Below, piece by piece: positions 6,899 through 24,507 of a stretch of DNA of 24,507 bases. Origin of the DNA: a virus. The stretch spans positions 1 through 24,507 of the IMG/VR virus record IMGVR_UViG_3300026142_000021, one strand, 5' to 3'. Position 1 is the stretch's first letter. The number at the start of each line of letters is the position of its first letter. The notes under the pieces are model-generated. The model was not told the origin of the DNA and did not search any database. It saw nothing but the letters and a program-made list of their open reading frames with translations. The translations under genes were made by a program, and so were the position numbers.

Positions 6899-7221
6899 GC
6901 GGTAATCCGCAGCTTCGGTTCCTTTGCCGACTTGCCCTGACGTTTCGTAGGCCACTTCATGAAGTCATGGACTGGCCTGCGTCTCACATCGATTTATGGG
7001 CGCAATATCTCGGCAAGGAACCGTCGCCGGATGACCGCATGGAAATCCAGATGGCCGCGCTGTAGGCGCTCTACATCAACTCGCATAAACGCGAGGGCGA
7101 TCCAGCGAAACGCATCGATGAATTCCTCCTATTCCGCAATGCTTGGGGCGATGCTCCGCAGCCGGAATCCTCACTCTCTGATCTGCTAACCGAATTCGGG
7201 CACCATAACAAGGCGCGATAA
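6569..7221 (+). CDS. Tail assembly chaperone GT fusion by -1 frameshift (two TAG as Gln)
   Basis: The product is read as join(6569..6892, 6892..7221), base 6892 being used twice. After the slip the frame reads RLSGNPQLRFLCRLALTF, then HEVMDWPASHIDLWAQYL and MEIQMAALQALYIN, ending at TAA 7219-7221. RFLCRLALTFRRPLHEVM and the WPA....WAQYL block are typical of the T part of phage chaperones, which binds the tube subunit while the G part binds the tape measure. The T part has an amber at 7063-7065 (MAAL-Q-ALYIN). Making GT thus needs one frameshift and two amber readings. The tape measure start overlaps the GT stop (TAATG). Confidence 0.82.
6886..6892 (+). promoter_or_regulatory. Programmed -1 frameshift slippery heptamer A AAA AAC
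   Basis: In the G frame the codons are GAA GAA AAA AAC GCC TAA, giving the exact heptamer A-AAA-AAC in the right phase two codons before the stop. A -1 slip enters a frame open to 7219-7221 that encodes a T-like domain, the classic lambda G/GT arrangement. Confidence 0.85.
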
Positions 7222-10200
7222 TGGCAACGATTGTATTTGACCTGAAGGCGATTACCGGGGCGTTTATTACCGACTTCTAGCGCGCCTCGAAAGAGGCGCA
7301 GAAGGCGATGAAGGAAGTCCGCGACTCGATAAACGAGACGGCGGCTGGTGCGAAAGAGGGTCTTCTTGAGGCGGTGAAATCCCTGACTGGCCTGAGTGCT
7401 GGTTAGCTCGGTCTTGGCGCTCTCGCCGCCGGCTTGGGCGAGGTGACGAAGCAAGCCATCGAGACTGGCGACAAACTGAATAAGATGGCGCAGAAGGTTG
7501 GCATCGGCGTCGATTCTCTCCAGGGCCTTGTCTATGCCGCATAGCTTTCAGACGTTGGCATCGAATCACTCGGGTCTGGGCTTGAGAAGTTCAACAAGGC
7601 GATATCTGCCGCCGCGGGCGGTAGTAAGGAATAGGCAGCCGCGTTTGCGTCTATTGGCGTTAGCCTCAATGATGCGAACGGAAAACTTAAGCCTACAGCG
7701 CAGCTCGTGTCCGAGGTATCGGATAAATTCAAAGGGTTCACGGATGATGCGAACAAGACGGCGCTGGCAATGGCGCTATTCGGCAAATCTGGTGCCGAAC
7801 TAATCCCATTCCTGAACACAGGAAGTGAGGAAATCAAGAAAATGGCCGCCGAGGCAAAGGCTCTCGGTGGTGATTTCGCGGCAATTGCAAAGCCATCCGA
7901 GGAATTCAACGACAACATAACGCGCATGAAATATGCGGCGGTTGGTTTCGGCGTGGATATAGCGAAGGAATTATTGCCCGTCTTGATTGAGGCGGAAGAG
8001 CGCATATTGGATTTCATCAAATCCGCACGAGAAAACGGCACCTTCTAGGCATTGGCATCAGCAATCGGAGTTGTCGTTAGCAATCTCGATACCCTTGCGG
8101 TCGTGCTCACGTCGCGCCTAGCCATTGGTGCAGCAATTTCTGCGTTTGAGACCCTTACCGTTGCCATAACCTCGACCGCCGGAGCTGCTGCTTTTGCAGA
8201 AGGTGCGCTTGCATTACTTGGCGGACCTGTAGGTATCTTGGCAATCGCCGCAGGGCTGATGTATCAATTTTCTACAACTACAGATATAGCCACACAAGCT
8301 ACTGATCATCTCAGGGATGCGATCAAGAAGGCTGACGATGCGACAAACGAATCCCTGCCTGGTCAAAAGGCTGCGCTTAGGGCCGCAATTGATCGAGCCA
8401 ATGCTGACCTCAAGGCGGCAGATGCAGCATTGACTCGCGCCGAGGCCGAACAAAAACTAGCGAATGCTAATTTGCCTGCGCCAGGCGCCACATTCACAAA
8501 TGGTGGTGGCGCATTCACACTTGCGGCGGGCATGGCTGATTCAAAAGTCGATAGTCTAAAATAGCATATTGCTGATTTGCGAAAGGAGATATTCAGCGCA
8601 AACGAATCCCTAAGCATTCTCGCGATCAATTAGAACATTGTTGGCGAGAAGGCGAAACAGGCAACGCCAAACTTCAATGGCCTTGCGAAGGCCATGACCG
8701 ACGCAGAAAAGCAGGCTGAGAAGCTTGCTAAGGACGGAGTTGAGCTTGCCTCGTTTCTTGATCAGTTGTCTTCCAAAACTGCAGATAAGCATACGAAGGC
8801 ATGGGCGGAATACGGTGCAGCAATCGAAAAGATTAATGCCCTTTCCACAAAATTTATCAAGGATGGAATGGATCAGGCCAGGGTCCAACAGTTCATATCC
8901 GATGCGACCCAACTTGCAACCCGTTCATTGCGCGAATAGACTGATGCAAACGAGAATCTTCTTCATGTCTTTGGCGATCTCGATACGCAAATAGCGCAAG
9001 AAACTCAAACGCTGGGGCTGAATTCCGACCAGCGAGATATCGTGAATGCCACGATTAAGGCGTAGGCGGAAATCTCAAAAGCACTTGAGGGCGTAATGGG
9101 GCCATTGACTCAGGCGCAGCAAGACGAAATTGATGCAGAGCTTGGGCGCGTGTAGTCACTTGAGTTGCTGAAACAAGAAACAAAGCGCGGCGAAGAGGCG
9201 GCGAGAGACTGGCAAAATGTCTGGAAAACTGCAGGCGATGGATTGGCGAGCACATTTGCTAGCATTCTGGTCAATGGCGGCTCATTATTCGATGGCCTTG
9301 TTAACCTGGCCAAGCAAACCGTCTAGGCGATCATCGAATATTTCGCCAAGCTCGCGGTCATCAATCCGATTCTGAATTCGATCTTTGGCGGATAGGCCGG
9401 TTTCAATCTGCTGCCGACGCTAGGTAGCGCGATTGCTGGCGGCGGTGGCGTTGCCGGTGGTTCAGCCGGCATATCGTCGATCTTCTCCGCCTCGTCATGG
9501 GTCAACGCAGGTAAGAATCTCTGGTCAGGATTCAGCACGTTCTGGAACGGCTCCGGCGTCGATGGCGTCGGCGGCAATTTCATGGGCAATTTCGTCACCG
9601 ATAACGGCACGACGACCTGGACGAATAGCGGGCTAGGGAGCGCAATTGGCATTGCTGGCGGCCTCTATGCTGGCTACAACCGATACTAGAGCGCTGGCGG
9701 CGGCCTCGCCGGCCTCGCAGGAGGGGCGGCGTATGGCGCGGGCACCTATGCCCTTGCCGGCGGCCTCGGCTCGCTTGCCGCGGGCGGTGGATTTGCTGCT
9801 GGCGTATCTGGCGCGTTCGCGGCAGTTCCCGTGGTGGGCTGGATTGCATTGGCCGCAATGGCCATTGACATGCTCTCTGGCGGAAACCTGTTTGGCACGG
9901 CCGCGAAGCCTACGGGCAATACGACTTAGAACATTGTTCTAGGCCAAGAGAGCGCGTCCGTACAAAATCAGTACGAAACGAAAAAGAAAGAAGCCTTTTT
10001 CGGCGGAAATTCCTATAGCTGGAAAGACTTCGCCGCGACCGACGATTAGATGGCTGCCGCAGATGCGCTTTTCTCCGGCATCCTGAAATCGGTGACCGCT
10101 GGCGCAGATGCGCTTGGTGGCAAGGTCGGCACGCTGATTACTGGCTCGTTCTATCAGAAGTTCGATAAGGATGGGAAGGTACTCGATGCCTATTCGACCG

Positions 10201-11852
10201 TGCTCGGTTAGAAATACAAAGAAACGATGCAGCAGTTCGCGGAGCGCGTCACCGCTGAGAACTTGCTGGCATTGCTTCCCGCCGCATAGAACGCTTCGAA
10301 GATCGCCGATCAATGGCGCGCATCTGCGGATGCGTTGCTAGACGGCACCAGCCTGCTACTTTCAGCGCAGGTCGATATCAACAAGGGTATCGGCTTGCTC
10401 GGGGACAATGGCAGCCTTGCGGACATCACGAAAGAAGTTCAGAAGCTGCAGTTGCAGAATGAATCTCTTTCGCAGACCTATTCGAGATTGCAGACCGAGC
10501 AGCAGACGTTCAAGACCATTCTTGACACGTTGGGGCTGACGACGGGCAAGACGGGGGCTGACTTCCTCGAATTCACGGACAAGCTAGTCACCATGGCGGG
10601 CGGCCTATAGAACCTGCAAAGCGCTTGGGATGGCTATTACAACGCCTACTATTCCGATTCCGAGAGGCAGGCGAATGCGCTCAAGGCGATGCAAAAGGCC
10701 GTTACCGATACTTTCCAAGTTATCGGCGAAGACCCCGCCGAAAGCATGGCGAAGTTCCGTGCAGATTTTGAGGCGGCACTCCCAACGCTGACACCGGAAT
10801 AGGTGCTGCAGTGGCTTGCTGGCGCGAACGCACTCGCCAATCTGACCGCATATATGAGCCAAGCGGCAGATGCGGCAACGAAACAGGCCCAGGCAGACGC
10901 GGCGGCGCAAGCTGCGGCGATGAAGAGCTATTCCGACTTCGTCGCATAGTTCGATCCGAAGACGCTCGGCATCACGGCGTTTGAGAACTCGCTGATTGGC
11001 CTACACGGCACGCTGACGGACAATATCCAAAAGGCGAATGATCTGGCGAAGGCCGCCGGCATGGCTGGCGCTTCTCAGCAGGATATTGCAAAGATCATTA
11101 CTGCCTCCGCATAGGCCGGCGTCGATGCGCTTAAGGCGTTTGAAGATCAGACGCAGCGGCTTGCTACGAAGCTCTACGGTACAGACATTGATCGCCTAAC
11201 CAAGCAATTGACCGATCTGCAAGCTGTAGACAAAACGCGTCTTGCCGGCGTGGACCCGTATACCGCATCCCAGTTGGCGCCCTTCTTCGCCAAGCAAGAG
11301 CAAGCGATTCAGGATCAGATCGATCAGGCGAACGCTTAGGCGGCAGCGCTGCAACGGCTGGCGGATGCGACCTCACTCCTATCCAATCTCGGATAGATCG
11401 GTTCAATCACTGGTCAATCGCTTGACGACTTGACAAAGCAGTTCAGCATCCCATTGGATAAGTTTGCGACCGATCTTGGCCTTTCTGGCAGTGATCTCAA
11501 CAAGCAATTCCAGCAGGCCGAATTGCAGGCTCAGGCAGCGATCAAGGCGAACGAATATCTAGCCGATATTCTGGCCACATTGCAGGGCAAGCCAATCAAT
11601 GCACTCAGTACACTTGATGGAATAATTGGCAGCAAGCCGGTGCCTACACAATCCGCGCCTGCGGACAATTCCACGGCGCTCAACGCCATTGCGGATAGGA
11701 TCATCGCCGCGATCAATAATGGCACTGGAGCAACACAAAACACCGCGAGGGTTATCGCCAGTGCGCTAACGACTCAAACCACGCGGCAATCTGCGGCGGC
11801 ATTGAGCGGTCCACGCACCACGCAGCCACCTCGCTTTTCGCAGCCGGCATGA
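7221..11852 (+). CDS. Tail tape measure protein (23 TAG as Gln)
   Basis: Recoded reading is one continuous frame of 1543 residues from ATG 7221 to TGA 11850-11852; in the standard code it breaks into more than 20 pieces. I count ambers at 7278, 7404, 7542, 7632, 8046, 8562, 8631, 8937, 9063, 9153, 9324, 9393, 9687, 9927, 10047, 10209, 10287, 10608, 10800, 10947, 11112, 11337 and 11394. N-terminal parts such as KLNKMAQKVGIGVDSLQGL and ALFGKSGAELIPFLNTG are standard tape measure motifs. Long Ala/Gln/Lys helical stretches follow, then a Gly/Ala-rich membrane-like region at about residues 730-895, and further coiled coil. It sets tail length and passes with the DNA at injection. It is by far the longest late gene and directly follows the G/GT chaperones, as expected. 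Confidence 0.93.
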
Positions 11853-12235
11853 TTGTCCCTCGCGTTGTCGTCAGCGAAATGTTCGACGGAATGTCGATAC
11901 ATGGAAGCGCGCCGACTGGCCTGACGACACAGACATACTCGGCAACCTTCACGGCGGTCAGTCCGACGCCTCCGCCTTATACATTCACCATTACCGGCAC
12001 GTTGCCGCCGTCGATCGACCCTACGAAGACATCCGACTCGATCACGTTTTCTAGCAATAACCTCACAACCGCAGGCATTTATACCGTCACGCTGACAGCG
12101 CGCAATTCAGACCGCGTCCGCGCAAGCATCACGATCACATTCGTGATCATCGCATCAGAGCCGGATAACGCGATCATTGACGAATATAACAACTTCATTG
12201 TCGATGAATCAGGTAATAGGATTTTGTACTCATAA
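11849..12235 (+). CDS. Ig-like/cadherin-like beta-sandwich tail protein
   Basis: This encodes 128 residues from ATG 11849 (ATGA overlap with the tape measure stop) to TAA 12233-12235, with no TAG. Residues about 25-105 look like a putative Ig/He_PIG domain: YSATFTAVSPTPPPYTFTIT, GTLPPSIDPTKTSDSITF, then LTTAGIYTVTLTARNSD. The last 25 residues (NAIIDEYNNFIVDESGNRIL) are acidic and typical of a linker or short fold in phage tail proteins. It probably decorates the tail tip and may bind surface sugars. Lack of ambers sets it apart from the tape measure. Confidence 0.65.
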   Translation: MIVPRVVVSEMFDGMSIHGSAPTGLTTQTYSATFTAVSPTPPPYTFTITGTLPPSIDPTKTSDSITFSSNNLTTAGIYTVTLTARNSDRVRASITITFVIIASEPDNAIIDEYNNFIVDESGNRILYS

Positions 12236-12765
12236 TGGACAAACAAATATATCTATATCCAGAAGTCACAGCGCCATCTGGCACTGAACGTGCACTTCTT
12301 TGGAGCGGACCAGATGTAACTGGTTATACAGCTAACATAAAGCTATCAACGATTGCTGCACTGTCGAAATCAGTCATCCGCCTGGACATATTCCAGGGCA
12401 TTGTTTCATCGAAGTACGACTCGACGCAGAAGCGCGTCTGCGGAAAGGTCAAGTTCGATCCGACAGCAGCGCGATACAAGCTTTCGACGACATCAACCGC
12501 GACTCTTTACGTCAACCTGGAAACAACCAGTGCTTCGAACGCTGCCTACTTCGAGTTGTTTCAGGAATCCGGTACTGGATCACCACTGAGCATCGTCACG
12601 CTCAATACCACGTCACTCACGACCGTCACATTAACGGCAGACGTTTCAACCTATTTCCGCAGCAATTCTAACGCCGGCCTATTCACTGGTCGCGAATGGA
12701 TAAACGTTGCCGATTCCATGAACTACGCGAATGGTTCTGGAGCGTGGATCGAAATTCAACCTTGA
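12235..12765 (+). CDS. Hypothetical tail-region beta-rich protein
   Basis: This encodes 176 residues from ATG 12235 (shares one base with the previous stop, TAATG) to TGA 12763-12765, with no TAG. It is rich in Ser/Thr and alternating strands (TLYVNLETTSASNAAYFELF, TSLTTVTLTADVSTYF), suggesting a jelly-roll or receptor-binding fold. No family is recognised. Position between the Ig-like protein and a tail virion protein suggests a tail-tip or fibre component. Confidence 0.55.
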   Translation: MDKQIYLYPEVTAPSGTERALLWSGPDVTGYTANIKLSTIAALSKSVIRLDIFQGIVSSKYDSTQKRVCGKVKFDPTAARYKLSTTSTATLYVNLETTSASNAAYFELFQESGTGSPLSIVTLNTTSLTTVTLTADVSTYFRSNSNAGLFTGREWINVADSMNYANGSGAWIEIQP

Positions 12766-12772
12766 GAAATAT

Positions 12773-13861
12773 ATGTCGCTTCCTACACTATCTAAGTCAT
12801 GGACGTTCAACTGCAACAACGCTATCACGGCACAAGGCACCGCTTTGGCTGATTGCTAGGCTCTACTACTGGCGATAGTCAATGCGCTTTTGGCTACCGG
12901 TAAATGGGCGGTAGCATATTCATGCAATTCCGTCACGGCAGGCTCCGCAGGAGATGGAGTTAATCGCTGGTCTACTGGTGCGAATCTGGTATGGGGTAAT
13001 ACAACGCGGTCTTGGATGGTACTAAAAAACACCAGCATGCCTGGGGGCAATTATCAGCTTTGCATCGACTTAAGCAATTCGGCAAGCAATAACCTAAGCA
13101 TAATACGATCGGTAAATGCAGGGTTTACCGGCGGTACCGTGACTGCTAGACCAACAGCAACAGATCAAGCAACGGTGTTGAATAATTTGACGTGGGGAGG
13201 ACCAAGTTCCGATCAGGCGATGCGCTGGTCAACTGAAGTTAGTACGGATGGGCAATGCACGCGAGTCATTACCGCTGGTTCAGGCAGCTTAAGGGGATAT
13301 TGGTACTTTGAGCAAACTGCTAGTCCAGATACCGGGACTACATATCCAATAGTGGATTACGCAGTTGGAGTGAATACCGGAACAGCCAACCCGAGTTTAA
13401 CCGCAATACTGGTTTACCCGCTAAGTGCAACCCCAGGGACGGCGAGCGTAGGTTACGTCAGTCAACTAACCGCGCTTACTAGTCCGAGTTCTATTTCAAG
13501 CAATTGGCCTATGGTACCAGCTTGTATCGTTGGAACAACGGCGGGTGTTTTTGGCTACCTTGGCATGTTCCAAGACATGTGGATCGGGTCCGCTAGCATC
13601 GCTACTGGTGATAGCTACCCAGGAGCAGCGAATTGGGCGCCGAGCACGTCATATGCGGTGGGCGCACAAGTCACAAATGGATCCAATGTATATACCTGCA
13701 CCACCGCTGGAACTTCTGCATCAAGCGGCGGCCCAACCGGCACAGGGACAGGAATTAGTGACGGAACTTGCGTTTGGAGTTTTTTCTCGCAGACATTGAA
13801 GTTCGTTCAAGTAGGGCAGTACATCATTCCATGGAACGGCGGGGCGTTTAACCTCACATGA
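12773..13861 (+). CDS. Phage tail virion protein, fibre-like (one TAG as Gln)
   Basis: Recoded reading gives 362 residues from ATG 12773 to TGA 13859-13861. It opens MSLPTLSKSWTFNCNNAITA then GTALADCQALLLAIVNALL, with the amber at 12857 (codon 29). This opening recurs in virion proteins of proteobacterial phages as I remember them. The C-terminal third has WAPSTSYAVGAQVTNGSNVY followed by TCTTAGTS, a carbohydrate-binding-like repeat. Only one TAG in 362 codons. In the standard code the first 28 codons would be lost, but a start at 12890 would leave most of the protein. The stop overlaps the next start (ATGA). Confidence 0.65.
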
Positions 13862-14109
13862 CTGCGCGCGCTGGTGGTTTCTATAACGTACAACCTACGG
13901 CGCCATCCGCTGGACTTCGCGGCATTGGTCGCTCTTCTGGCGCATTCTATGCGTTTCAGTCACGCCTTCCGATCTATTGGAATACCGGATGGTACTTGGG
14001 CGTTCAAGAAACTCCGTGGCTCAGCTACGGCGCGCCAAGTTCAATATCTCCAAGCGGGCACACACCATTGACAAACGTGCAGTATGAATTGCTCGAATCA
14101 CTGCCATGA
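13858..14109 (+). CDS. Small hypothetical tail-region protein
   Basis: This encodes 83 residues from ATG 13858 (ATGA) to TGA 14107-14109, with no TAG. It is aromatic and Gly rich: RAGGFYNVQPTAPSAGLRG, FYAFQSRLPIYWNTGWYLG. There is no recognised family. Tight overlaps with genes on both sides show it is part of the tail operon and suggest a structural role. Confidence 0.55.
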   Translation: MTARAGGFYNVQPTAPSAGLRGIGRSSGAFYAFQSRLPIYWNTGWYLGVQETPWLSYGAPSSISPSGHTPLTNVQYELLESLP

Positions 14110-16916
14110 CCGTACATCGCACTCTAACCGCATCAATCGAATTCACTATGCGACAGCTCTATTCGATTCTCGATAACACCTATGCTGATGCATCGATGGA
14201 TATCAGCGATGGCGCGACTATTCTAGCTTGCAATACTGGTGGCGCGAACTCGCACCGCATGTGTCGTTGCACAGTGCCTCTGTCCGATACCATCAGCTAG
14301 TTTGAGACGCTTACTTGGGGTAGTGGATCGCTTACCAACGGTTCGTTAGGCGCCGTATACATCGGAATCGTGAATGCAAGTGCGCCGACCAACAAGTATG
14401 TTGGCGAGGATGCGAATGGCTACGGGTTCCGTTTGGATGACGGCAAGCTCTACTTCAACGGCTCAGCCGTCGCCACGTTCACTGCCTGCGCGAAAGGTGA
14501 TCTCGTCTACTTCCGGGTCAACTTCGACAACAATCAGATTTTGATCACCGTTCTCAATGGCAGCACGACGATCGGCACGTATCTCGCGAGCACCACGAAC
14601 ACGGCGGCATGGTATCCGGCAATCACGGTTGCTGGCGGCTCCGCGTTCTCGTTGCAGACGTTCTTCAATGCAGGTCAGCGCACATTTGAGAACAACACCA
14701 ATGTGCAGGGCTGGTGGGATGCTGCCGCATAGCCCGCATCGGTCTATCTTGCGACCGATCCATATCTCTCGCAGCCATCCGACAGCTTGCCATCACAACG
14801 CTTTGATGCGGTCAATGGCGCCCTGATTCCAGACAATTCGATGGTCTTCCCGCGCGGCGCGGACTTCTGGATGAACAAGGGCGATAGCCGGCTCGGTTCA
14901 TCGCTGAGCACGCTGGCATTAGAAGACCCAGACGGAAAATATGATTTCATGCTTGACCATCGCAATGCAGCGATGAAGTTGAGCACGGTAGACCAGAGCG
15001 GAAGCTACGATAGCGCGTAGCTTGAGGATACCGTCATCCTTGATCGAGTGGAAACAAAAGGTGACCAAGCCAAGGTCATCTATATGGCCGATCCGATCGC
15101 GGAATTCTTATCAAAGCCGTTCAATACGACCTATTTTCTGCCGAACTAGGATTCTAGCGTGGTGGATACGCCGGTGCCGGTTCTTATCGGCATGGCGCGC
15201 AATTTCGAGCCGGTGTGTGAAGATCCGGTAAACCATGTCTACCGCATTAGTGATAGTGCAATAGGTGCAATTGGTGCGGTTAGGGTATAGGGCAAGCTGC
15301 TTGTATTCGGCACGGACTATACGTTGTCCGCTGACGGCATGCGAATCACTCTCACGGCTGCGCCTACAGGAAAATTGACCGTAGAGGCCAGCGGGGTAGT
15401 GCAGGGAATTCCTCCTGGTCCAACCGATTTGCTCAGTGGTCACGGCGACTTCGGCAGCTAGACGACTCCGGCAGTTTGGCAAGCCAACTGGCAAACCTAT
15501 TGGAGCGGAAATGATTCCTATACCAATGGTGACCGCCCCTGCTGGTTTGATGAGTTTGGCGGCGGCCATGTTGACGGCATAGACGATGCGGGCGGCCTGT
15601 CTGGCTCCAATGGCTCGGTGCTGATCAATTTCTATGCGACAACTCTGCGTCCGCAGAACTACGCCATAGGGTTCCGGACTAAGACCAATGTTGTGCAGAA
15701 CGGTAAGACCTATGCCTGTCAGGTAAAGTTTTGGGATGCGCCATACGTCGCGACTCAGCAGCCGTTGGATAGCACGACCTCGGTTCTTGCGCATTTCTTC
15801 CTTGACGGGCATCACGACCAATACCAATACCGCTCCGTAAATCACTGGTCGGGGATGTACTATTCTCAGTTCACAGATTCGGGCGGCAAGCCTGGGGCGC
15901 CTCAACTTGCCGCGGCTGGCGGTGTATGCAATGCGGTGTTCTTTAATACCGGCCTCAATCTTCAGCCGTACGCAACCGATTGTCCCGCCACGGCAACCAT
16001 CAGCTTCACCAACAATTCCGGCGCTGATCTACCCCTTTGCCTGAACTTCGTTGATGGCAACGGCGGATCATGGTGGATCCGCAGTGTGGTGCTTTACGAG
16101 TTGCCGGACGCGATCAATGCAGCCCCATTGCAAGGTGTCGGCCTCGAAGATTATATGCGCGCCGTGCTAACACGCGCTGGAATCGATGAAAGCCAATGGG
16201 ACCCAATACAGGCACGGGCAATCGATGCGGCTACGGGCTACCAGATCGGAAACTGGTTCTCGAATCAGCCGGTAACTGTTCAGTAGGCACTACAGCCCGC
16301 CCTTGACACGTTCGGCGCCTCCATCTATCGCAAACGTGATGGACGAATGGGCGTCGTTCGTCTGATTGATCCGGATACCGTAGCGGATGCGGATGTGAAT
16401 TGGGAAATCGACGAGAGCGATATCCTCTTGGAGCCTTATGTTTATCCCGATGTCATGCAGGGATTGACGACTGGCACCTATGGTCGAAAGAACATCTCTC
16501 CTGCGTCAGAGAGCGACTTTACGAACATGACGACCACTGACGTGTCAATCGCCGAGCGTAAATTGCTGGAAAGGAATTATCAGTTTACCTATACCAGCGG
16601 CGTGCAACTCAGCGAAATGTACGGTCAGGCATAGCTTAACGTTCCGCGTGAAACGCTATTCGACCTTAAGGCCGATATGTAGGCAGAAACCGAGCGCACA
16701 GTTGCCCTAGCGGTGAACACGCGCAAGTTCTTCCAGATCACAGTCAAAATGCCGCCAGGAACTCAATATGATGTCGGCGATGTTGGCAAGGTGACCTATA
16801 AGCTCAACTCAGCCGGAACGTCACGGCGGTACGGTCTGGATGGGGCAAAGGTTTTTGTCTTCGCCGTAGATCCGAACCCCGCTATGCAAACCTGCCTGCT
16901 TGTTTGTTGGAGATAA
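14106..16916 (+). CDS. Large tail-tip/hub-like protein with SPRY-like domain (nine TAG as Gln)
   Basis: Recoded reading gives 936 residues from ATG 14106 to TAA 16914-16916. Ambers are at codons 65, 209, 305, 348, 395, 452, 727, 843 and 859 (14298, 14730, 15018, 15147, 15288, 15459, 16284, 16632, 16680). Residues about 66-205 look like a B30.2/SPRY lectin-like domain (GYGFRLDDGKLYFNGSAV, GDLVYFRVNFDNNQILITV, WYPAITVAGG). A possible jelly-roll at about 445-675 follows. The C-terminal third (GLEDYMRAVLTRAGID, NWEIDESDILLEPY, KFFQITVKMPPG, DVGDVGKVTY) has the look of central tail hub/baseplate proteins. It likely forms the tail tip and contacts the host surface. A eukaryote-like SPRY fold in a tail hub is less common. 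In the standard code it is ten fragments. Confidence 0.75.
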
Positions 16917-17776
16917 TGATGTCTGGATCATCCCTATTCGGCTATGGCGCACCGGCAGGCGTGAGCTATGCCATTACGGGGGGCGCAGCCTTTGTTGGCA
17001 ACATCGTGCTCGACAACTCGGCGCCTTCCGATGTCACCCGCTTCACCTGGTCGTCTACATCGACCGCAGTCGTTACCCTGCAGGCGCTATGGTCAACGCC
17101 AATTGTTCCACGCTGCGGTTGTTTCTTAGGCACCACGCTTCCTATTGGCATGGTGGTCACAATCAAAGGAAAGCGGTCTGGGGATTCAAACTTCCCCTAT
17201 CTTCTTGGCGGAAATTCGTAGACATCAGTTGTGGTCTAGCTTGATGACGGATCACGGGCAATCATCTGGGCGTTCGATGCTGGATTGACTCCGATCATCG
17301 GCTATGAAATCGCCATGTATCCCGCGCTTAGTGTTACCTCATCGGAACTCTTTGAGATTGGTGAGGCTCGCATCTTTCAGGGCTACCGCCCCGGTAATGG
17401 CATTCAGGAGAAATGGACGCCGGGGTTTGACAATATTCAGAATCCATCAACAACGGTCAATCGCCAACCGCACGTTGTCAATCACCGCTACAACCATACG
17501 CTCAATCTGACCCTCGGCATCGCTACTGAACAAGCCGCATGGACGAGCGATAATGGCGACATATCGCTAAACCGCTTCGCGCACATTGCGGCCGCGCATC
17601 AGACCATGCTTGCGATCCCATATGCCTACAATAAGGGTATTCTGAACGCGCAAATGCTCGCCAACTCTGCGATCTACGGTTACGCAAGCAAGGTCGAGCA
17701 GCCTCAGCACATCGAGAACCATCTTTATCAGATGGCTATGTCGTTCACCGAATATCCTCCACAGCAATACGGCTAA
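16916..17776 (+). CDS. Hypothetical distal tail protein (two TAG as Gln)
   Basis: Recoded reading gives 286 residues from ATG 16916 (tandem ATGATG; the second at 16919 is also possible) to TAA 17774-17776. Ambers lie close together at 17219 (codon 102) and 17237 (codon 108): LGGNS-Q-TSVVV-Q-LDDGSRA. The middle IFQGYRPGNGIQEKWTPGF and VNHRYNHTLNLTLGIA segments are beta-rich; I know of no clear family. It follows the hub protein, so tail tip or receptor binding is likely. Confidence 0.65.
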
Positions 17777-17789
17777 CCAAGGAGTCACC

Positions 17790-18539
17790 ATGTATAAGTT
17801 CATTCTCGCAGCGATCCTGTTCGCCATTGCCTCTTTGGCGCACGGCTAGGTCGCTACCTGTACCGTCACTGGCCCGGATGGCTATAACGGACCATATTCT
17901 CCGGCGCTGAACTTCACTTGCGGAAGCACACCACCGCCACCAGTTTGCACGCCACCCGCAACCCTTGATCCAGTGACACATCAATGCGCGACACCGATCA
18001 ACTATTGTGACGCAAGCCAGATAAGCACCGCCCTTGGTGGCAAGACGTTTCAGCGGCAGTGCGCGGGGCAGATGGTGCTACAGCCCAACGGCATTGGTGG
18101 GGGAATCGTCGGCCTGACAGATCTTGGCTCTCTGCTTGGCAACAAGGCGTTCCCGAACTATCCGTATTCTGGGCAATCGCTGACGTTCTACATCGACTCT
18201 GGATACTACGTGTCGCTGGCGTTCACTCCCGCCGCATCGGGGCTGATTAAGTTCACTGCGAACAACAGCTACGGCGACGGCGGCACGATCTCGCTGAGCA
18301 CTTCGCCCGGTGTCTTGACCCCTGGCGCCCAAGGTGTCATCTGCGCATCAACCTATGGTGGTCTGAATAGCATGATCGTCGGTACATCGACGGGATATTG
18401 CCAGGTCAAGATCGGGCAGACGTACTACATTAACTTCGCCGACACAAACGCCAACGGCGATCAGCTTTGCTTTGGTGGGACAGCGGGGACATGTGCGCAG
18501 TCGCGTGTGTCCTACGCCTTTACAGCAAGAGCGCAGTAA
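17790..18539 (+). CDS. Secreted/exported phage protein with signal peptide (one TAG as Gln)
   Basis: Recoded reading gives 249 residues from ATG 17790, with an AAGGAG box 7 bases before, to TAA 18537-18539. A classic signal peptide is seen: MYKFILAAILFAIASLAHG. The amber at 17847 (codon 20) would be the first residue of the mature protein if cleavage follows AHG. The mature part begins with a Pro/Cys-rich stretch (CGSTPPPPVCTPPATLDP) and then a Cys-containing beta domain with CDASQIS, YYVSLAFTPAASGLIKF and GDQLCFGGTAGTC, probably disulfide-bonded in the periplasm or on the virion. As last gene of the late operon it may act in lysis, exclusion or adhesion; no family is recognised. Confidence 0.7.
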
Positions 18540-18713
18540 CCGGCCTAGCTAAGCGATCCATCGCCGTCCGCCGCTTGCGGCACTGCTTCCGGGTAGGCGT
18601 AGGGTAGGGGTGTCGACGCTCTCGTCGACATGGGCGATTCCCGCGCCATCCTGTAGGAGATTTCCTACGCCGGAAGGGTAGGTTTGTGCGGCTTTGAGTC
18701 GGCCTGTCGGAAA

Positions 18714-18741
18714 AATAGTAGCAGTCAGCAGGAATAGTAGC
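18714..18741 (+). repeat. Left pair of putative integrase arm-type sites
   Basis: The 9-mer AATAGTAGC occurs exactly at 18714-18722 and 18733-18741 (start-to-start 19 bp). The same motif occurs in inverted orientation on the other side of the tRNA-like core. Spacing and flanking position fit arm-type sites bound by the N-terminal domain of tyrosine integrases. Confidence 0.6.
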
Positions 18742-18743
18742 AA

Positions 18744-18775
18744 AAGGCCCGCAAGCGGAAAACGCTGCGGGCCTT
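18744..18775 (-). terminator. Strong hairpin terminator beside the att core
   Basis: AAGGCCCGC plus AGCG pair with CGCT plus GCGGGCCTT (13 bp, one bulged A, loop GAAAA). On the - strand it is followed by TTTTGC, a short T-run, so it acts best for transcripts running right to left, i.e. the integrase operon or, after integration, the restored tRNA-Asn gene. It may also stop late + strand transcripts. Confidence 0.65.
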
Positions 18776-18783
18776 GTCGTTAT

Positions 18784-18834
18784 TGGCTCCCCGAGACGGA
18801 CTCGAACCGCCGACCCAGTGATTAACAGTCACTC
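18784..18834 (-). other. attP core: 3' half of a tRNA-Asn(GTT) gene
   Basis: On the - strand this reads as an anticodon arm AGTGA-CTGTTAA-TCACT (anticodon GTT), variable loop GGGTC, T-arm GGCGG-TTCGAGT-CCGTC, acceptor strand TCGGGGA, then G and CCA ending at 18784. The D-arm and 5' acceptor strand are absent: the bases before the anticodon arm cannot form them. Phages that integrate into tRNA genes carry exactly such a 3' half to rebuild the gene. It lies about 90 bases beyond the integrase stop, flanked by arm-type motifs. Confidence 0.85.
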
Positions 18835-18890
18835 CCGGCAATGTGATGATATCGCATTGATTCGTATAGCGAAAACTGCATTTGCAAATT

Positions 18891-18957
18891 GCTACTATTC
18901 GGCAAAATCGACCGGCTACAGACCGCATTATTGCTTGACCTGTTTGCGGATAGTAGC
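18891..18957 (-). repeat. Right pair of putative integrase arm-type sites
   Basis: GCTACTATT at 18891-18899 is the exact inverse of the left-side motif (longer match TTGCTACTATTC). GATAGTAGC at 18949-18957 matches 8 of 9 bases in the left-side orientation and lies inside the last codons of the integrase gene. Together with the left pair they bracket the core. Confidence 0.5.
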
Positions 18958-19917
18958 AAGCGGAGTCACCGCCGTTGGCTTGGCGCGATAGTGCTTTCTA
19001 GTCACCTTTTCGTCGCTATGCCCGAGCCTTTGCGCGGCGTCCGTGTCGCTCGCTGAATCGCTGCCAGTCTTGCGGCGCAGATCGTGCCACTTCAAATCCT
19101 TGACCGGCAATTTCACGCGCCAGCGCTGCCATGTCGAATGGAAGCTATCCGCCGTGTAGTGCTTGCCATCGCGCGTCGGGAATAGTGGCTGCGAACCGAT
19201 GCGGTCGCCCGCCGCATCCTTCCACACCTCCCGCAGATCATCCGTCCATTCAAGCAGTATCGGCTTGCCGCCCTTGCTCGGCCTGTACGTCACCCCCTCT
19301 TGACCGGCCTGCGTGATTCGCAGCGCGAGCACATCGGCCTGACGCATGCCCGTCAGATAGCTCCAATGGGCCATCTGTGCGAGGCGGCGGGGAAGGGCGC
19401 CAATGATCGCGGTCAACTCGGCGTCGGTCACATAGCGTTGCCTAGGCGCCTCGGGATTGCGGAAGTGCATTCCCTTGCACGGATGATCGCCGCGAAACTC
19501 GCCCGCGTTCAGGAGGTGTGTATACATCGCCGATAGCAGCGCGCGGTCACGGTTCGCCGCCACATCGCCGCGCTCGGTTAGGTACTTGTAGACGTGCTCG
19601 CGCTTCAATTCGTCCAGCGCAAGCGCGCCGAATATCGGGATGAGCCGCTTTGCGCTCCTAGCATATCCCTTGCGCGTCTCTGGCCTTAGTTTGTCGTGGC
19701 GTAGCGCGAGATACTTCGCCAATGCCTCGCCGACCGTCTCTGCGGGCTTGTGCGGCTCGCCGACTAGCTCGGCGTACTGGCGAAGCGCCTCGCCATAGTC
19801 GCTGCCTAAGCGAAGCCAGCGCTGCTTGCCGTCCTGCCGGTACTTGTAGCTATAGACCTTTCCACGCTTGACCATACCGCGCGGTAGGAACTTGTTCGAC
19901 TCACGCAGCCTTCCCAC
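18928..19917 (-). CDS. int: Tyrosine integrase
   Basis: This encodes 329 residues from GTG 19917 to TAA 18928-18930. This start is preferred to GTG 19941 because it has a GGAG box 8 bases before it and gives MGRLRESNKFLPRG, the usual opening of this phage integrase group. The N-terminal part (VYSYKYRQDGKQRWLRLG) is arm-binding-like and the middle is a SAM-like core-binding domain. The catalytic domain shows Arg in SYLTGMRQADVLALR, Lys in PSKGGKPIL, HDLRR, GHSDEKVTRKHY with the nucleophilic Tyr. No internal TAG. It integrates the phage at a tRNA-Asn gene, judged from the neighbouring attP. It overlaps the DUF4224 gene end by 17 bases. Confidence 0.93.
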   Translation of the reverse strand: MGRLRESNKFLPRGMVKRGKVYSYKYRQDGKQRWLRLGSDYGEALRQYAELVGEPHKPAETVGEALAKYLALRHDKLRPETRKGYARSAKRLIPIFGALALDELKREHVYKYLTERGDVAANRDRALLSAMYTHLLNAGEFRGDHPCKGMHFRNPEAPRQRYVTDAELTAIIGALPRRLAQMAHWSYLTGMRQADVLALRITQAGQEGVTYRPSKGGKPILLEWTDDLREVWKDAAGDRIGSQPLFPTRDGKHYTADSFHSTWQRWRVKLPVKDLKWHDLRRKTGSDSASDTDAAQRLGHSDEKVTRKHYRAKPTAVTPLATIRKQVKQ

Positions 19918-20116
19918 GGATCGCGCTCCAATCCGGTTCACGCGCCTTGCGCGCCGGCTTCTCGTTGCCGAAATAGTCTACGCGCTTCACCAGCGGGCGA
20001 CCAACGGCATTCGGACGAAAGGGGATGCCCATTGCCGCCAGAGCGCGACACTGCGCCGACCAGCGCTTGCGCGCAGTCAGCTCAATGATTGTTTCTGGCG
20101 ATAAGTGTTCGCTCAC
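19901..20116 (-). CDS. DUF4224-type small protein upstream of integrase
   Basis: This encodes 71 residues from GTG 20116 (GTGA overlap with the previous stop) to TGA 19901-19903. SEHLSPETIIELTARKRWSA, then QCRALAAMGIPFRPNAVGRP, is the DUF4224 pattern: a short helix-turn-helix-like fold almost always encoded just upstream of phage integrases. Such proteins are thought to help DNA binding or excision, but this is not established. An upstream in-frame start (20149) would overlap the GIY-YIG gene more and lacks the family start. Confidence 0.8.
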   Translation of the reverse strand: MSEHLSPETIIELTARKRWSAQCRALAAMGIPFRPNAVGRPLVKRVDYFGNEKPARKAREPDWSAIRGKAA

Positions 20117-20628
20117 GCAGATTTCTTGGCCTTCGCCATTGCGTCGCAACTTTCAATGAAGTCGATAAGCTGCCAGCCAGTTATGAACTTTCTATCGTTT
20201 ATTTCAACGAACCCTATCTTGCCTTTTTGAATCAACGATGAAATCGCACTAGACGCCACGCCAATGGCATCCGCCGCCTCCCTTCGATTGTATAGAGGCT
20301 TGAACCTTACGGTTTGGTGCACAAGTTCTGCGCGCGCCGCCTCATATTTGCTGTTCGGCGCGGCCTCTACACGCCTATGCACAATGTTATGCAAAGGCTT
20401 TTCATTCTTGATGGCTTCGCGTTCAGCGGCAATCGCATCAGCACGACTGGGGAAAGATACGATTTCGACTCTGGCTATGCTGCCGAACCAATGCGAGTGG
20501 TCTTGATGCTGGCCGAGTCGGGAAATTGCGGATAGTGAAATTCCGACATACAGAAGTTTACCGTCAGCATCGAAGTGTCGGTACAAATTCGTCTTGATTG
20601 CCAATCCTTCATTCATTCCATCGCCCAT
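20113..20628 (-). CDS. GIY-YIG nuclease domain fused to an excisionase-like HTH domain
   Basis: This encodes 171 residues from ATG 20628 (GAGG 8 bases upstream; ATG 20634 is possible but too close to that box) to TGA. The N-terminal half is GIY-YIG: LYRHFDADGKLLYVGIS with both Tyr positions, Arg in ISRLGQH, Glu in AAEREAIKNE and Asn in PLHNI, so the catalytic set looks complete. The C-terminal half (LYNRREAADAIGVASSAISS, then KGKIGFVEINDRKFITGWQL) looks like a winged HTH of the excisionase/MerR type. The combination two genes before int suggests a site-specific nuclease or a recombination regulator. Its stop overlaps the DUF4224 start. Confidence 0.75.
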   Translation of the reverse strand: MGDGMNEGLAIKTNLYRHFDADGKLLYVGISLSAISRLGQHQDHSHWFGSIARVEIVSFPSRADAIAAEREAIKNEKPLHNIVHRRVEAAPNSKYEAARAELVHQTVRFKPLYNRREAADAIGVASSAISSLIQKGKIGFVEINDRKFITGWQLIDFIESCDAMAKAKKSA

Positions 20629-20643
20629 TCTCATTTCCTCGTC

Positions 20644-20874
20644 TTATCCCGCAATCAGTCGCCGGCTAGCCCTGACCGGTTCAATGAAGTCAGGGTGGTA
20701 GCCACTCGCCGTCTTTCTTCCCTCCCATAAAACGGTTGGACTATTGAACTCATCCACCCGCGTTACGATCCCGATCCTCTTTGCCTTCACGCCAACATAA
20801 AGGGTTGCCTCGATCCCTCTCTTGCTAAGGCGAACCTTCTGGCCGATTTTGAAAGGTGGTTGTGAACCTATCAT
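20644..20874 (-). CDS. Small SH3/KOW-like hypothetical phage protein
   Basis: This encodes 76 residues from ATG 20874 to TAA 20644-20646. FKIGQKVRLSKRGIEATLY, then KRIGIVTRVDEFNSPTVLWEG and GYHPDFIEPV, is the five-strand pattern of small SH3/KOW-like phage proteins (Gly-Val-Val turn, then W, then YHPDFIE). The role is unknown. A GAGAGA box precedes the start. Confidence 0.6.
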   Translation of the reverse strand: MIGSQPPFKIGQKVRLSKRGIEATLYVGVKAKRIGIVTRVDEFNSPTVLWEGRKTASGYHPDFIEPVRASRRLIAG

Positions 20875-20884
20875 TCTCTCTTCC

Positions 20885-21121
20885 TCACTCCGCTAGCCGA
20901 TTAGGCTGGAATAGGTCCGCGTTCTTTGCCCTGAGTTCTGCGCAATGATCGCCAGGTAGGCAGTGACCGCCAGTTACACGGCATCCAAACCCGCAGTGAC
21001 CGATATCGCCCCAAGGGCCGCGCTGCGTTACCGTATATTGCAGCGGGCATCCTTGCGCATCGAAGCCAGGATGGCTTGCGTAAGGGTTCACGCCGTCTTG
21101 TGGAACCATTCGTTCTTGCAT
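20885..21121 (-). CDS. Cys-rich small phage protein
   Basis: This encodes 78 residues from ATG 21121 (AGGA 6 bases before) to TGA 20885-20887. It contains CPLQYTV, then GHCGFGCRVTGGHCLPGDHC, i.e. five or six Cys and several His suitable for zinc binding. No family is recognised. It follows the TAG-terminated gene with 7 bases between them, so its separate start matters for judging that TAG as a real stop. Confidence 0.55.
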   Translation of the reverse strand: MQERMVPQDGVNPYASHPGFDAQGCPLQYTVTQRGPWGDIGHCGFGCRVTGGHCLPGDHCAELRAKNADLFQPNRLAE

Positions 21122-21128
21122 AAAAATC

Positions 21129-21641
21129 CTAGTTCACCCCAGCGGACGATCCGCGAAAAGGGAAGGGTAAATTCTTCGATTCTCGGTCTTTTACGTAACT
21201 CCCCAACCAATGCAGCCAGATAAACGAGGCCGCAGCGTAAGGCTCGTTAGCAATGCACATCGCGAATGCGAAGAGCAAAATCATTGCGGTAGTTTCTTCG
21301 CAAGATCGGGTGTAAGCCCGCACAAATTTGTTGATCGTGTTTCGCTGATTCTCGATACGATGGTGCAGGGCATTCATCTGGCGCGCGCTTTCGTAGTCGG
21401 CTGCTTCAACCGCGGCAACGTGATCGGCATAGCGCACGTAGTCGCCGTCCGAATCAGGCTCGATGTCCTGCCAGTTTTCCATCCCGCGCGAGCGCAGAAC
21501 CAATTCGTATCGTGCAATCGTGCTCATCGCGCCCCCCCAAATCACCCAACCACACCACCCAAAGAACACAACCCACCCGAGCAGGCACAGCACGCCATAG
21601 ACCGATTTTGAAACGTTCGGTGTAAGGGATCTGGCATTCAT
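21129..21641 (-). CDS. Two-segment membrane-like early protein ending in TAG
   Basis: This encodes 170 residues from ATG 21641 (ATGA overlap with the upstream gene) to TAG, 21131-21129 on the - strand. Residues about 15-35 form a membrane segment (VYGVLCLLGWVVFFGWCGWV), followed by a soluble part starting at Met 39 (MSTIARYELVLRSRGMENW, DIEPDSDGDYVRYADHVAAV), a helical stretch, and a second hydrophobic segment (TAMILLFAFAMCIANE). Met 39 follows a run of seven G (21532-21538), which can act as a ribosome site or a slippage point, so a shorter product is possible. The TAG stop is the only one seen among all genes of the window. Confidence 0.6.
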   Translation of the reverse strand: MNARSLTPNVSKSVYGVLCLLGWVVFFGWCGWVIWGGAMSTIARYELVLRSRGMENWQDIEPDSDGDYVRYADHVAAVEAADYESARQMNALHHRIENQRNTINKFVRAYTRSCEETTAMILLFAFAMCIANEPYAAASFIWLHWLGSYVKDRESKNLPFPFRGSSAGVN

Positions 21642-21766
21642 GCTGTCAACACGTTCCCGCAAACGGACGTCGAATGCCTCGACGCGAGCTTGGCGATGTT
21701 CCGCTGTCGCAACGCCTCGCGTTCTGCGGTGCGAGGGTTGTATTCGTAGCTGAATTTCTGTGGCAT
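21638..21766 (-). CDS. Short 42-residue early protein
   Basis: The gene starts at ATG 21766 in a TGATG overlap with the upstream gene, with GGAGG just upstream, and ends with TGA overlapping the next ATG (ATGA). It reads MPQKFSYEYNPRTAEREALR and then a basic helix. Overlaps at both ends and the ribosome site support it. Function unknown. Confidence 0.55.
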   Translation of the reverse strand: MPQKFSYEYNPRTAEREALRQRNIAKLASRHSTSVCGNVLTA

Positions 21767-21954
21767 CACCCCTCCTTGCTCGGCGTGGGCTGATCGTCGA
21801 AAAAGCCGCGTAGGTTTCGATACAAGCTCTCTGCCTGCTCCCAACTAAGTTCGACCTGGATGCCACCCGCATTTAAGCGAATATAGGAAAGCTCGGCGTT
21901 TTCCACCGTCACGTCTTCGAACTCGTCTTGAGAAATGTCGATCTGAATTTCCAT
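21766..21954 (-). CDS. Small acidic early protein
   Basis: This encodes 62 residues from ATG 21954 (TGATG with the upstream stop) to TGA. It is acidic with one alpha/beta unit: MEIQIDISQDEFEDVTVENA, VELSWEQAESLYRNLRGFF. No family is recognised. A longer in-frame start at 22233 would cover two other coding regions and is rejected. It is part of the overlapping early chain. Confidence 0.6.
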   Translation of the reverse strand: MEIQIDISQDEFEDVTVENAELSYIRLNAGGIQVELSWEQAESLYRNLRGFFDDQPTPSKEG

Positions 21955-22151
21955 CACGGCTTCACCTCCGGCGTGGGTGCGGCGGCGAGCGCTTGCCTCA
22001 TTTGCTCTGCCGTATACAGCCATGTGCAATCGAAATCGATTACCCGACCACGCTGGCATCGTGCGCATTGATCCACGTAGCTCGGCAACAAAATTCCGAA
22101 CGTACCGATTCGACGCCAGCGGTGTATTCCGAGTGCACAAAGTAGATTCAT
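21954..22151 (-). CDS. Small protein with CxxC zinc-ribbon-like motif
   Basis: This encodes 65 residues from ATG 22151 (ATGA overlap) to TGA 21954-21956. MNLLCALGIHRWRRIGTFG, then VDQCARCQRGRVIDF, shows one CxxC plus an upstream Cys/His that could bind zinc, similar to small phage and bacterial zinc-ribbon proteins (typically C.lG.H.W...C.RC). Function unknown. Confidence 0.65.
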   Translation of the reverse strand: MNLLCALGIHRWRRIGTFGILLPSYVDQCARCQRGRVIDFDCTWLYTAEQMRQALAAAPTPEVKP

Positions 22152-22885
22152 TTGCTGAGCCTCTCGATCGCTGATTCGATGATTTCCCGCGCAAGACCAC
22201 CAATGCCGTGTGGAACAAGCGAACCGCTGGCATCGAGGTTTAGCAGCGCTTTGGCCTGAGCAATAAAAGCGGAGTGATCCTCCGGCAAGCCCGTCTGCGC
22301 CACGGGAATTTCAGCGATCAGCGACTCGATGCTCATGCCCGTAGGCGACCACGTCTTGCCAAGCTTGACGCACAGCATCTTCTCGACTTCGATTGCCCAT
22401 GCCGCAACCTGATCCGTCTGCGCCACGGGCTGCGCGGCAAGTCCAGCTTCAAGAATCGCTGTCACGCACGGACGCCCAATGAAAGCCTTGTTCACGATCG
22501 CGTAGGCGGCGTCTATCATTTCCTTGGTCGGCTCACGGATTACTTCCCCCTGCGCGGCGAGCATCGGGGCGATGGCTTTGAATCGGTGACGTGCTGCGAC
22601 CAGCGCATCGTAAGCACCAAGGCAGTATGCTTGTGCAGAGTCTTTGCCGCGGAATTCCTCGCGACCACTGCCGTACAGTTTTTCATTCAGTCGTTCTATC
22701 TCGGCATCGAACACATCGTGCGGAGCTTTGGCTGCTTCCGACAGCCTGTCGAGCATTGGCCCGATGACTTCGGCTACGTGGCGAACTGACGCACGCAAAT
22801 TGTTTCCGTCGTACACGTCGATGAAAGCCGCATACGCATCGTTCTCAATTTCGTCCGTAACGAAAAACTTCGTTTGCTCGCTCAC
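22148..22885 (-). CDS. Hypothetical early phage protein (245 aa)
   Basis: This encodes 245 residues from ATG 22885 (ATGA overlap) to TGA 22148-22150. It is mostly helical; EVIREPTKEMIDAAYAIVNK is a motif often seen in proteobacterial phage proteins of unknown role, usually near other early genes. It also has VDQ-like and AAQPVAQTDQVAAWAIEVEK repeats of low complexity. No catalytic motif is seen. No internal TAG. Confidence 0.65.
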   Translation of the reverse strand: MSEQTKFFVTDEIENDAYAAFIDVYDGNNLRASVRHVAEVIGPMLDRLSEAAKAPHDVFDAEIERLNEKLYGSGREEFRGKDSAQAYCLGAYDALVAARHRFKAIAPMLAAQGEVIREPTKEMIDAAYAIVNKAFIGRPCVTAILEAGLAAQPVAQTDQVAAWAIEVEKMLCVKLGKTWSPTGMSIESLIAEIPVAQTGLPEDHSAFIAQAKALLNLDASGSLVPHGIGGLAREIIESAIERLSK

Positions 22886-24111
22886 TTCCCACCCCCAAGT
22901 TGATCGGCGACGGCTAGCACATGCTCCAACATCGCGCGCGCCTGCGGGTCATTAAGCAGGTTTGTTCCTATCGGCCAACAATGAGGGTATTTGTCACTGA
23001 ACGACCTGTCGAAGTTGATGCCGGCGTCGGGGTGAAAATCCTTCGGAAGTCGCCACGACAAAAAACGACGCACCATTTCATCCGTCACGACATCTTTGGT
23101 TACTGGCGTTTGCGCCCGTGCTCGAAATTCATCACGCTCGGCGATGAGTCTTTCGAGAAACGTCGACATGTCTTCGTCGTCGTGCGCACCGCCCTTTTCG
23201 CGAACGGCCAGATTCGCCGCAATCTCGTCGTGCAAAACTTCCTTTAGCCGATCAATTTCCACTTTCTGCTGTTCGATCCTTTCCTTACCCCGCTCGCTAG
23301 TTAACGATGCCGGCGTTTCGTTTACTTGGGGGTGCGGCGGGTGGGTGTAGAGCGCCATCCACGGATAGCTCTCGGCACGATGCGCATCACTGCCGACCGG
23401 ACGAGTGTCCGACCAGAGCGGCCCGTTACGCGGATGCACAGGAACGTGCGCTACTAGCTCTCCCTGCGCCGCAGGTTGGGCAAATATGACACTCCCATCC
23501 TCAGCATGCGTGTGCGCCCTTGATACTGCACACCAACAATCGGATTGCGAAAGCGCCGCAACCCGCTTCATCCGCGACTTGCTCGGCGTGTCGTCCGCTG
23601 CGGTGTGTTGGGCGGCAAGGGCGGAACTCCACGCCGCTTGCCAGTTATCCCATGCGACGGTCGTTTGAATATCCGCATCCGGCTCAACTGGAAGGCCGAA
23701 CCATCGCTCAAACGCGGCACGGCACGAAGCATCCGCAACGGTTGGCATCTTGCAGCATCGACCGAACGGCATATCCTTGGCCGCGCAGGTACATTCCGGC
23801 TGGGCGGCAAGTCTTACCGCCATCTCCTCGCCGAATTCGCGCTGTTCGTTACCTTGAAACCCGCACAGGAGCATCGCATCGTTTGCCGCCTGTTCGTCGG
23901 CGTCGCTGCCATCACCGCAAACCTTCGGTAGCCACCGAATCAGCGCGGCTTGCAATTCAGCGATCTGCGCTTGATAGCGATTTTGCCCCCGGGTCGCCAG
24001 CCGCACCAGTTCCGCGCGAATCAATTTCCACTTGTCCCCGTGCATCGTCACGCAGTCGAACTGCTCGATCGCTTCGCGGACCTCGGGCGGGAAGGGGGAA
24101 AGGTCGGTCAT
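22882..24111 (-). CDS. Hypothetical early phage protein (409 aa)
   Basis: This encodes 409 residues from ATG 24111, which overlaps the upstream TGA (ATGA), to TGA 22882-22884. It is modular: an N-terminal helical part (FPPEVREAIEQFDCVTMHGD), a Cys patch (ECTCAAKDMPFGRCC), a segment with AFERWFGLPVEPDADIQ and WDNWQAAWSSALAA common in phage proteins, a coiled coil (GKERIEQQKVEIDRLKEVL), then TDEMVRRFLSWRLPKDFHPD. Such mosaics of short phage modules are frequent in early operons; the function is not known. No internal TAG. Confidence 0.65.
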   Translation of the reverse strand: MTDLSPFPPEVREAIEQFDCVTMHGDKWKLIRAELVRLATRGQNRYQAQIAELQAALIRWLPKVCGDGSDADEQAANDAMLLCGFQGNEQREFGEEMAVRLAAQPECTCAAKDMPFGRCCKMPTVADASCRAAFERWFGLPVEPDADIQTTVAWDNWQAAWSSALAAQHTAADDTPSKSRMKRVAALSQSDCWCAVSRAHTHAEDGSVIFAQPAAQGELVAHVPVHPRNGPLWSDTRPVGSDAHRAESYPWMALYTHPPHPQVNETPASLTSERGKERIEQQKVEIDRLKEVLHDEIAANLAVREKGGAHDDEDMSTFLERLIAERDEFRARAQTPVTKDVVTDEMVRRFLSWRLPKDFHPDAGINFDRSFSDKYPHCWPIGTNLLNDPQARAMLEHVLAVADQLGGGK

Positions 24112-24368
24112 AGCGCCCACCCGAAAGGAATGTCCGCGCGCTTGACATACTTGACCACCAAGCCCTCATCGTTGGCGATCAGATGCACGTCATAGCCAAG
24201 TTGGTCCGCAGCGCTGACTCGTGCGTGCAGATCAGCGAGCGACCAACCCTCTGACAGTCTCGCCTTTGGATAAGTCCACATGATCTTGCGACTCGCATAC
24301 TTGACCTTCCATGCGAAATCCTTCACGTCTTTGAGAAGACGCTGATACGGATTAATCCTCACGGTCAT
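24108..24368 (-). CDS. Small hypothetical early protein (86 aa)
   Basis: This encodes 86 residues from ATG 24368, preceded by AGGAG 6 bases before, to TGA 24108-24110. It is basic at the start (INPYQRLLKDVKDFAWKVKY), then SLADLHARVSAADQLGYDV and a short beta hairpin. No family recognised. It starts 51 bases after the SSB stop, and its stop overlaps the next start. Confidence 0.6.
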   Translation of the reverse strand: MTVRINPYQRLLKDVKDFAWKVKYASRKIMWTYPKARLSEGWSLADLHARVSAADQLGYDVHLIANDEGLVVKYVKRADIPFGWAL

Positions 24369-24380
24369 ACATTCTCCTTT

Positions 24381-24406
24381 CGCCGAGCCGATGAACTGGC
24401 CCGGCG
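24381..24406 (-). other. Hairpin between SSB and the next early gene
   Basis: CGCCG..GCC pairs with GGC..CGGCG (8 bp with one A-C mismatch). It lies just upstream of the ribosome site of the gene at 24368. There is no T-run, so it is more likely a message structure than a terminator. Confidence 0.25.
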
Positions 24407-24419
24407 TGGTTGGGATAGA

Positions 24420-24507
24420 TCAGAACGGGATTCGGTCGGAATCGGTGAAATCGTCGGCTGGCGCTGGCGCTTGACGTGAACCACTCGCCTGCCGCTGTTC
24501 GCCGCCT
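24420..24507 (-). CDS. ssb: Single-stranded DNA-binding protein, C-terminal end (partial)
   Basis: Reading from the right edge gives 28 residues ending at TGA 24422-24420: a Gln/Ala/Pro-rich linker followed by PADDFTDSDRIPF. The acidic tail ending IPF is the diagnostic C-terminus of bacterial and phage SSB proteins, the part that docks DNA repair and replication partners. The OB-fold part lies outside the window. It shows that the - strand block continues into replication and recombination genes. Confidence 0.85.
   Translation of the reverse strand, partial: GGEQRQASGSRQAPAPADDFTDSDRIPF

Follow-up and report, generated by a model that had tools for sequence, protein, structure and literature searches.

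In the model for phages that read TAG as a sense codon, early genes keep the standard code while structural and lysis genes are recoded (Borges et al. 2022, as summarized in PMC10879173). Proteomics placed code 15 in virion proteins, and the early proteins detected gave no indication of it (Peters et al. 2022, PMC9523058), and a tRNA-associated code switch has been described in which an HDV-like theta-ribozyme adjoins a suppressor tRNA (PMC10879173). Genome blocks of different genetic code were also found in cold seep viruses by Mgcod analysis (PMC10504277). The early/late code switch is already a published model, and the phage clade described here is a new lineage with known behaviour. Similar to the code 15 gut phages, it has TAG as glutamine in structural and lysis genes, a standard early code, a suppressor tRNA and a proposed timing switch. 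Unlike them, its members are HK97/PAJU2-like, temperate, ~55% GC and related to phages of Pseudomonadota; they also differ in having early genes that end at UAG and in being known from sequence alone. In the cold seep viruses, recoded genes serve mostly replication and repair, whereas the replication genes of the present clade are TAG-free. PAJU2 and HK97 share its temperate siphophage layout but use the standard code. Neither early UAG terminators nor a TAG gradient was seen described in the papers compared (PMC10879173, PMC9523058 and PMC10504277).

The stretch of DNA that we analysed (the window) comprises a whole IMG/VR virus record (24,507 bases) and represents part of a temperate siphophage. 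Its + strand encodes head-tail, tail tube, tape measure and tail-tip proteins at positions 219-18539. On the - strand, 18928-24368 carries genes for an integrase, a DUF4224 excisionase and a GIY-YIG protein, behind which small early genes form a chain (Table 1). Between the head-tail and tail genes sits a TAG-recoded cargo block (878-5085), whose glycosyltransferase-like and methyltransferase genes possibly have a role in surface or DNA modification.

Table 1 Coordinates of features in the window and in R3, which is relative G003 read in window orientation
Feature	Sequence	Position	Strand	Remarks
Late genes in which internal TAG codes for Gln	Window	219-5450	+	Open only when TAG is read
Head-tail adaptor	Window	219-575	+	phrog_40
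Methyltransferase in cargo block	Window	3896-4393	+	Methyltransf_11
Family-8 glycosyltransferase-like gene in cargo block	Window	4390-5085	+	Glyco_transf_8, weak
Connector gene	Window	5064-5450	+	TAG-recoded late gene
Tail tube protein, 3 internal TAG	Window	5525-5989	+	PF16460, E 5e-56 with TAG = Q
Tape measure protein, 1,543 aa, 23 internal TAG	Window	7221-11852	+	PHROG tape measure families
Tail-tip and late accessory genes	Window	12731-18539	+	14106-16916 with 9 internal TAG
attP core	Window	18784-18830	-	3' part of tRNA-Asn(GUU) gene, with CCA
Tyrosine integrase	Window	18928-19941	-	0 TAG, stop TAA
Excisionase-like DUF4224 protein	Window	19901-20116	-	PF13986, E 4e-12; PHROG excisionase; 0 TAG
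GIY-YIG endonuclease-like gene	Window	20113-20634	-	PF01541; PHROG endonuclease; 0 TAG
Two small early genes	Window	20644-21121	-	0 TAG; coding score of 20885-21121 weak (+1.6)
Early gene ending at TAG (21131-21129)	Window	21129-21593	-	Called with TAG stop; true start uncertain
Remaining early chain	Window	21766-22023, 22148-22885, 22882-24120, 24108-24368	-	0 TAG
Integrase, SSB, RecT, repressor	R3	571-11383	-	
Methyltransferase, DnaB helicase, other replication genes	R3	11501-20300	+	
Middle and lysis genes	R3	20324-25909		
tRNAs	R3	28093-29182		
Terminase and virion genes	R3	30964 onward		

A recoded clade was collected from IMG/VR with integrase, tail, terminase, capsid and helicase queries. 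Most of the late block of the window has 86-98% identity to relative G003 (IMGVR_UViG_3300005548_000485, 56.4 kb), whose other end matches short stretches of the early region; G003 therefore covers nearly the whole phage, circularly permuted. Its homologue of window gene 14106-16916 likewise has 9 TAGs. G004, G005, G007 and G008 are further members, and a diverged lineage is formed by G006, whose late block is ~73% identical, and L120, both from one sample. Several of the sample numbers probably belong to rhizosphere soils. The terminase is 57% identical to that of phage PAJU2 and 52% to that of HK97, and the capsid is 52% identical to that of PAJU2. Together with the tail tube, these relationships and an integrase with its attP point to an HK97/PAJU2-like temperate siphophage. 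Among relatives with a capsid identity of 64% or less, matches to terminase, capsid, tail tube and tape measure contained no TAG, and a search of reference genomes for a recoded prophage gave at best a 60% identical capsid in Luteimonas, in standard code.

The relatives showed further features of their own. A permuted (two-piece) tmRNA gene (Rfam RF04321, 112.5 bits) lies at L012:14169-14600 on the - strand and is found in G004 too; its tag, ANDDSYMPMAQAA, ends at TAA. No such gene was present in those parts of G005, G007 and L120 that are covered. Two-piece tmRNAs have been reported in phages, mostly from marine or aquatic samples (PMC9004378). Early proteins built of short repeats are encoded in G003 (SATSGYSAH-like; R3 7024-8049, L011-L013) and in G006 (pentapeptide-like AGADL/AYLARA repeats; L112). 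At the late/early junction, the window and G003 carry two different integrases, and no integrase match was found at that of G006 (L111/L112).

Aligned codons and residues were used to assign a meaning to TAG. Opposite a TAG, the clade most often had TAG (317), CAG (71) or CAA (42), the next codon being GAA (26). In standard-code relatives, the best conserved positions had glutamine opposite TAG in 61/64 cases for the portal and 16/18 for a connector, and TAG 38 of the tail tube faced glutamine in 18/18. Over all TAG columns, many of them variable, glutamine was the commonest residue in these relatives. Such comparisons indicate that TAG in late genes stands for glutamine.

G003, G004, G005, G007, G008 and L120 encode a tRNA with a CUA anticodon a short way upstream of the terminase genes. 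Every clade member that covers this place has it, and a scan of standard-code relatives turned up none. The window fragment does not include the locus, and its CUA tRNA is presumed from relatives up to 98% identical. The tRNA occurs in two sequence types, both with an unpaired first pair, G2-C71, G10 and G73, which are glutaminyl-tRNA synthetase features; ARAGORN labels the CUA tRNAs tRNA-Pyl because of the anticodon only. In L114 (G007) and L115 (G008), a tRNA-Gln(UUG) with the same weak first acceptor pair adjoins the CUA tRNA. Rfam models searched over the tRNA region gave no ribozyme match next to the suppressor tRNA up to E = 1, and a promoter and terminator scan around the tRNAs returned sites no more numerous than chance.

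The - strand early genes of the window had been predicted to lack internal TAG over about 1,800 codons, where some 17 would be expected. The lack holds, and those figures, which include overlapping ORFs, are near the ones from a stricter gene set. With 57 CAG/CAA codons, the early genes have 0 TAG in 1,475 codons, against 57 in-frame TAGs in 5,970 codons (0.95%) and 240 CAG/CAA in the late + strand block. At the late rate, the early genes should hold about 14 (P0 = 7e-7); a Fisher test on Gln codons gives p = 3.7e-5. The integrase, with only 13 Gln codons and a chance of 0.81^13 (~0.06) of having no TAG, is too short to show depletion alone. Composition or a general avoidance of TAG was rejected as the cause: in their five off-frames the early genes have 5.7-14 TAGs per 1,000, about the late-gene frequency, compared with 3 in 8,530 codons in frame, all three terminal. 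The lack is thus specific to the reading frame.

The same border was seen when the check was carried to the rest of the genome, with 0 internal TAG in early genes of G003, G004, G005, G006, G007 and L120. The internal TAGs of G003 number 0 in the left early, 0 in the right early, 8 in the middle and 71 in the late genes. Summed over the clade, with integrase, repressor, recombination and replication genes as the early set, internal TAGs per Gln codons were 0/~560 early, 31/288 middle and 231/1379 late (Fisher early versus late, 1e-35, on genomes that are related and not independent data); a single early TAG counted in this sum is the terminal TAG of the G006 SSB. The border is repeated in the diverged G006/L120 lineage, at least two lineages in all. 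Terminase and capsid of the recoded relatives have TAG in frame together with 0 TAA/TGA.

The original prediction set lysogeny genes on one side of the border and virion genes on the other. An early/late code border is real, but that line is not exact, as the border falls among delayed-early genes: internal TAG also occurs in delayed-early or middle genes, namely a nuclease-like gene, small proteins, lysozyme and holin. The first internal TAG of G003 lies in the nuclease-like gene (R3 20324-20644), ~10 kb before the terminase genes; the family of this gene was assigned by eye, Pfam and PHROG having given no match. The middle genes with TAG precede those for the tRNAs, so the border does not just follow the late operon.

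UAG has two meanings in one genome, stop in early genes and glutamine in late ones. The predicted TAG stop at 21131-21129 proved real: the read-through stretch scores -17.7 in the codon model (anti-coding) and would run for ~75 codons, out of frame across the next gene (20885-21121). The 247-aa ORF at 21129-21872 is over-long, its first ~85 codons scoring negative, and the gene probably starts near 21,530-21,650. In G003, the repressor stops at TAG (22 read-through codons, score -5.9), as does the methyltransferase; G005 and G007 encode a small HTH protein that also ends at TAG, with downstream codons that differ. The G006 SSB stops ...DDIPF-TAG, directly after its DDIPF tip; since the SSB tip must be the C-terminus for partner binding, TAG acts as stop there. 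As terminators of early genes, TAG codons are less frequent than in standard-code relatives (4/93 versus 51/394, p = 0.017), which is what some cost of such stops under late suppression would predict. A TAG in G003 (R3 40183-41028) that looked like a late stop was discounted, since the window gene conserves what follows it.

Within late genes, TAG is shifted toward the 5' part relative to CAG/CAA of the same genes in the window, G003, G005 and G006 (within-gene permutation, P <= 0.0003 in all four genomes), and a control of CAA versus CAG showed no positional shift. The ratio of TAG to Gln codons is 0.26-0.35 in the first fifth of genes and declines to 0.03-0.12 in the final fifth, and the shift survives exclusion of the first 15 codons and of the tape measure gene (P <= 0.002). 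Between G003 and G006, 10 TAG sites are shared and 25 are TAG/CAR exchanges; the TAGs unshared between the two are shifted as well (P = 0.0085 and < 0.0003). This bias sets the clade apart from the gut phage phAss-1, the single comparator, in which no 5' TAG shift was found. Full reassignment predicts no gradient, whereas costly or incomplete suppression predicts one, as does selection for early truncation; the gradient data do not separate the latter two. Because TAG is concentrated in the 5' parts of late genes, suppression of UAG is probably incomplete.

We consider it likely that this temperate HK97/PAJU2-like siphophage gives UAG two meanings in time. Before the late phase, integration, repressor, recombination and replication genes would be translated in the host's standard code with UAG as stop, so that early genes could not tolerate internal TAG and some could terminate with it. 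In the relatives, a CUA tRNA of predicted glutamine identity is encoded on the late strand upstream of the terminase genes, a position from which it should accumulate once the region is transcribed. It would then be a competitor of release factor 1, and glutamine would be inserted at UAG in the mRNAs of virion and lysis genes. The border, glutamine at TAG, the tRNA of the relatives and the TAGs that terminate early genes are read from the DNA itself; from them we infer the timing of tRNA expression, the charging of the tRNA and the dependence of full-length late proteins on it. In the translational late-gene switch as originally proposed, the border, TAG as glutamine and the CUA tRNA are supported and two-code timing is well supported, whereas a regulatory purpose of the TAGs is something that we only infer.

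It is an even call whether the TAGs control anything at all. If the suppressor tRNA were present only late, late genes could simply drift to TAG, and the early block would be amber-free because it is translated before the suppressor exists. Such drift is in keeping with the count of late genes with TAG, which matches random placement among Gln codons, and with the fast turnover of TAG sites between the G003 and G006 lineages. It sits less well with the non-random placement of TAG within genes, although the strong 5' bias also fits a cost of failed read-through. A gate in every late gene was rejected, as the number of TAG-bearing late genes equals random placement. A stronger form of control, which we think improbable, would make suppression a two-sided switch that opens late genes and at the same time puts tails on UAG-ended early proteins (+23 residues on the repressor, +4 after DDIPF on the SSB and +9 to 10 on the HTH protein), with incomplete suppression setting the 5' bias.

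Early genes might also lack TAG through recent acquisition from standard-code phages, a mosaic origin that is improbable for the early genes as a set. Window 18133-20100, which comprises a late gene end, attP and the integrase, has 87% DNA identity to G001, whose late block uses the standard code; the integrase is 91% identical in amino acids, the tRNA-Asn attP core is 47/47 identical and another early stretch of 101 bases matches G001 at 76%. In the integrase taken by itself, the missing TAG is explained equally well by recent exchange and by timing. Yet the diverged lineage of G006 and L120 has the border too, helicase identity is 82-100% within the clade but does not exceed 62% outside, and early genes terminate with TAG but never contain it. 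The replication genes are clade-specific, and exchange does not account for their lack of TAG. The breakpoint of the G001-shared cassette (L009, L010) lies inside the late gene at 17790-18539. A host in which UAG is a sense codon, or a contig that joins two phages in a chimera, is very improbable; neither found support, and no host genome with the phage was found. A UAG-sense host is at odds with the UAG stops of early genes, one of which falls exactly at the C-terminal tip of an SSB, with the phages' own CUA tRNA and with the standard code of isolate relatives (PAJU2, HK97 group) and of the Luteimonas prophage. A chimera is opposed by the presence of both blocks together in two other assemblies, G003 and G006.

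Read as a switch timed through the infection cycle, these phages would extend behaviour known from the gut to an HK97-like temperate phage, whose group includes relatives that are tractable in the laboratory. They offer testable anchors, namely an SSB and a repressor that end at UAG where capsid genes need UAG as glutamine. The integrase cassette shared with a standard-code phage shows that amber-free modules can cross the code border, and the 5' TAG gradient may tell complete reassignment apart from suppression that is partial or gated. Should the two-sided switch be true, C-terminal tails would shut early functions down.
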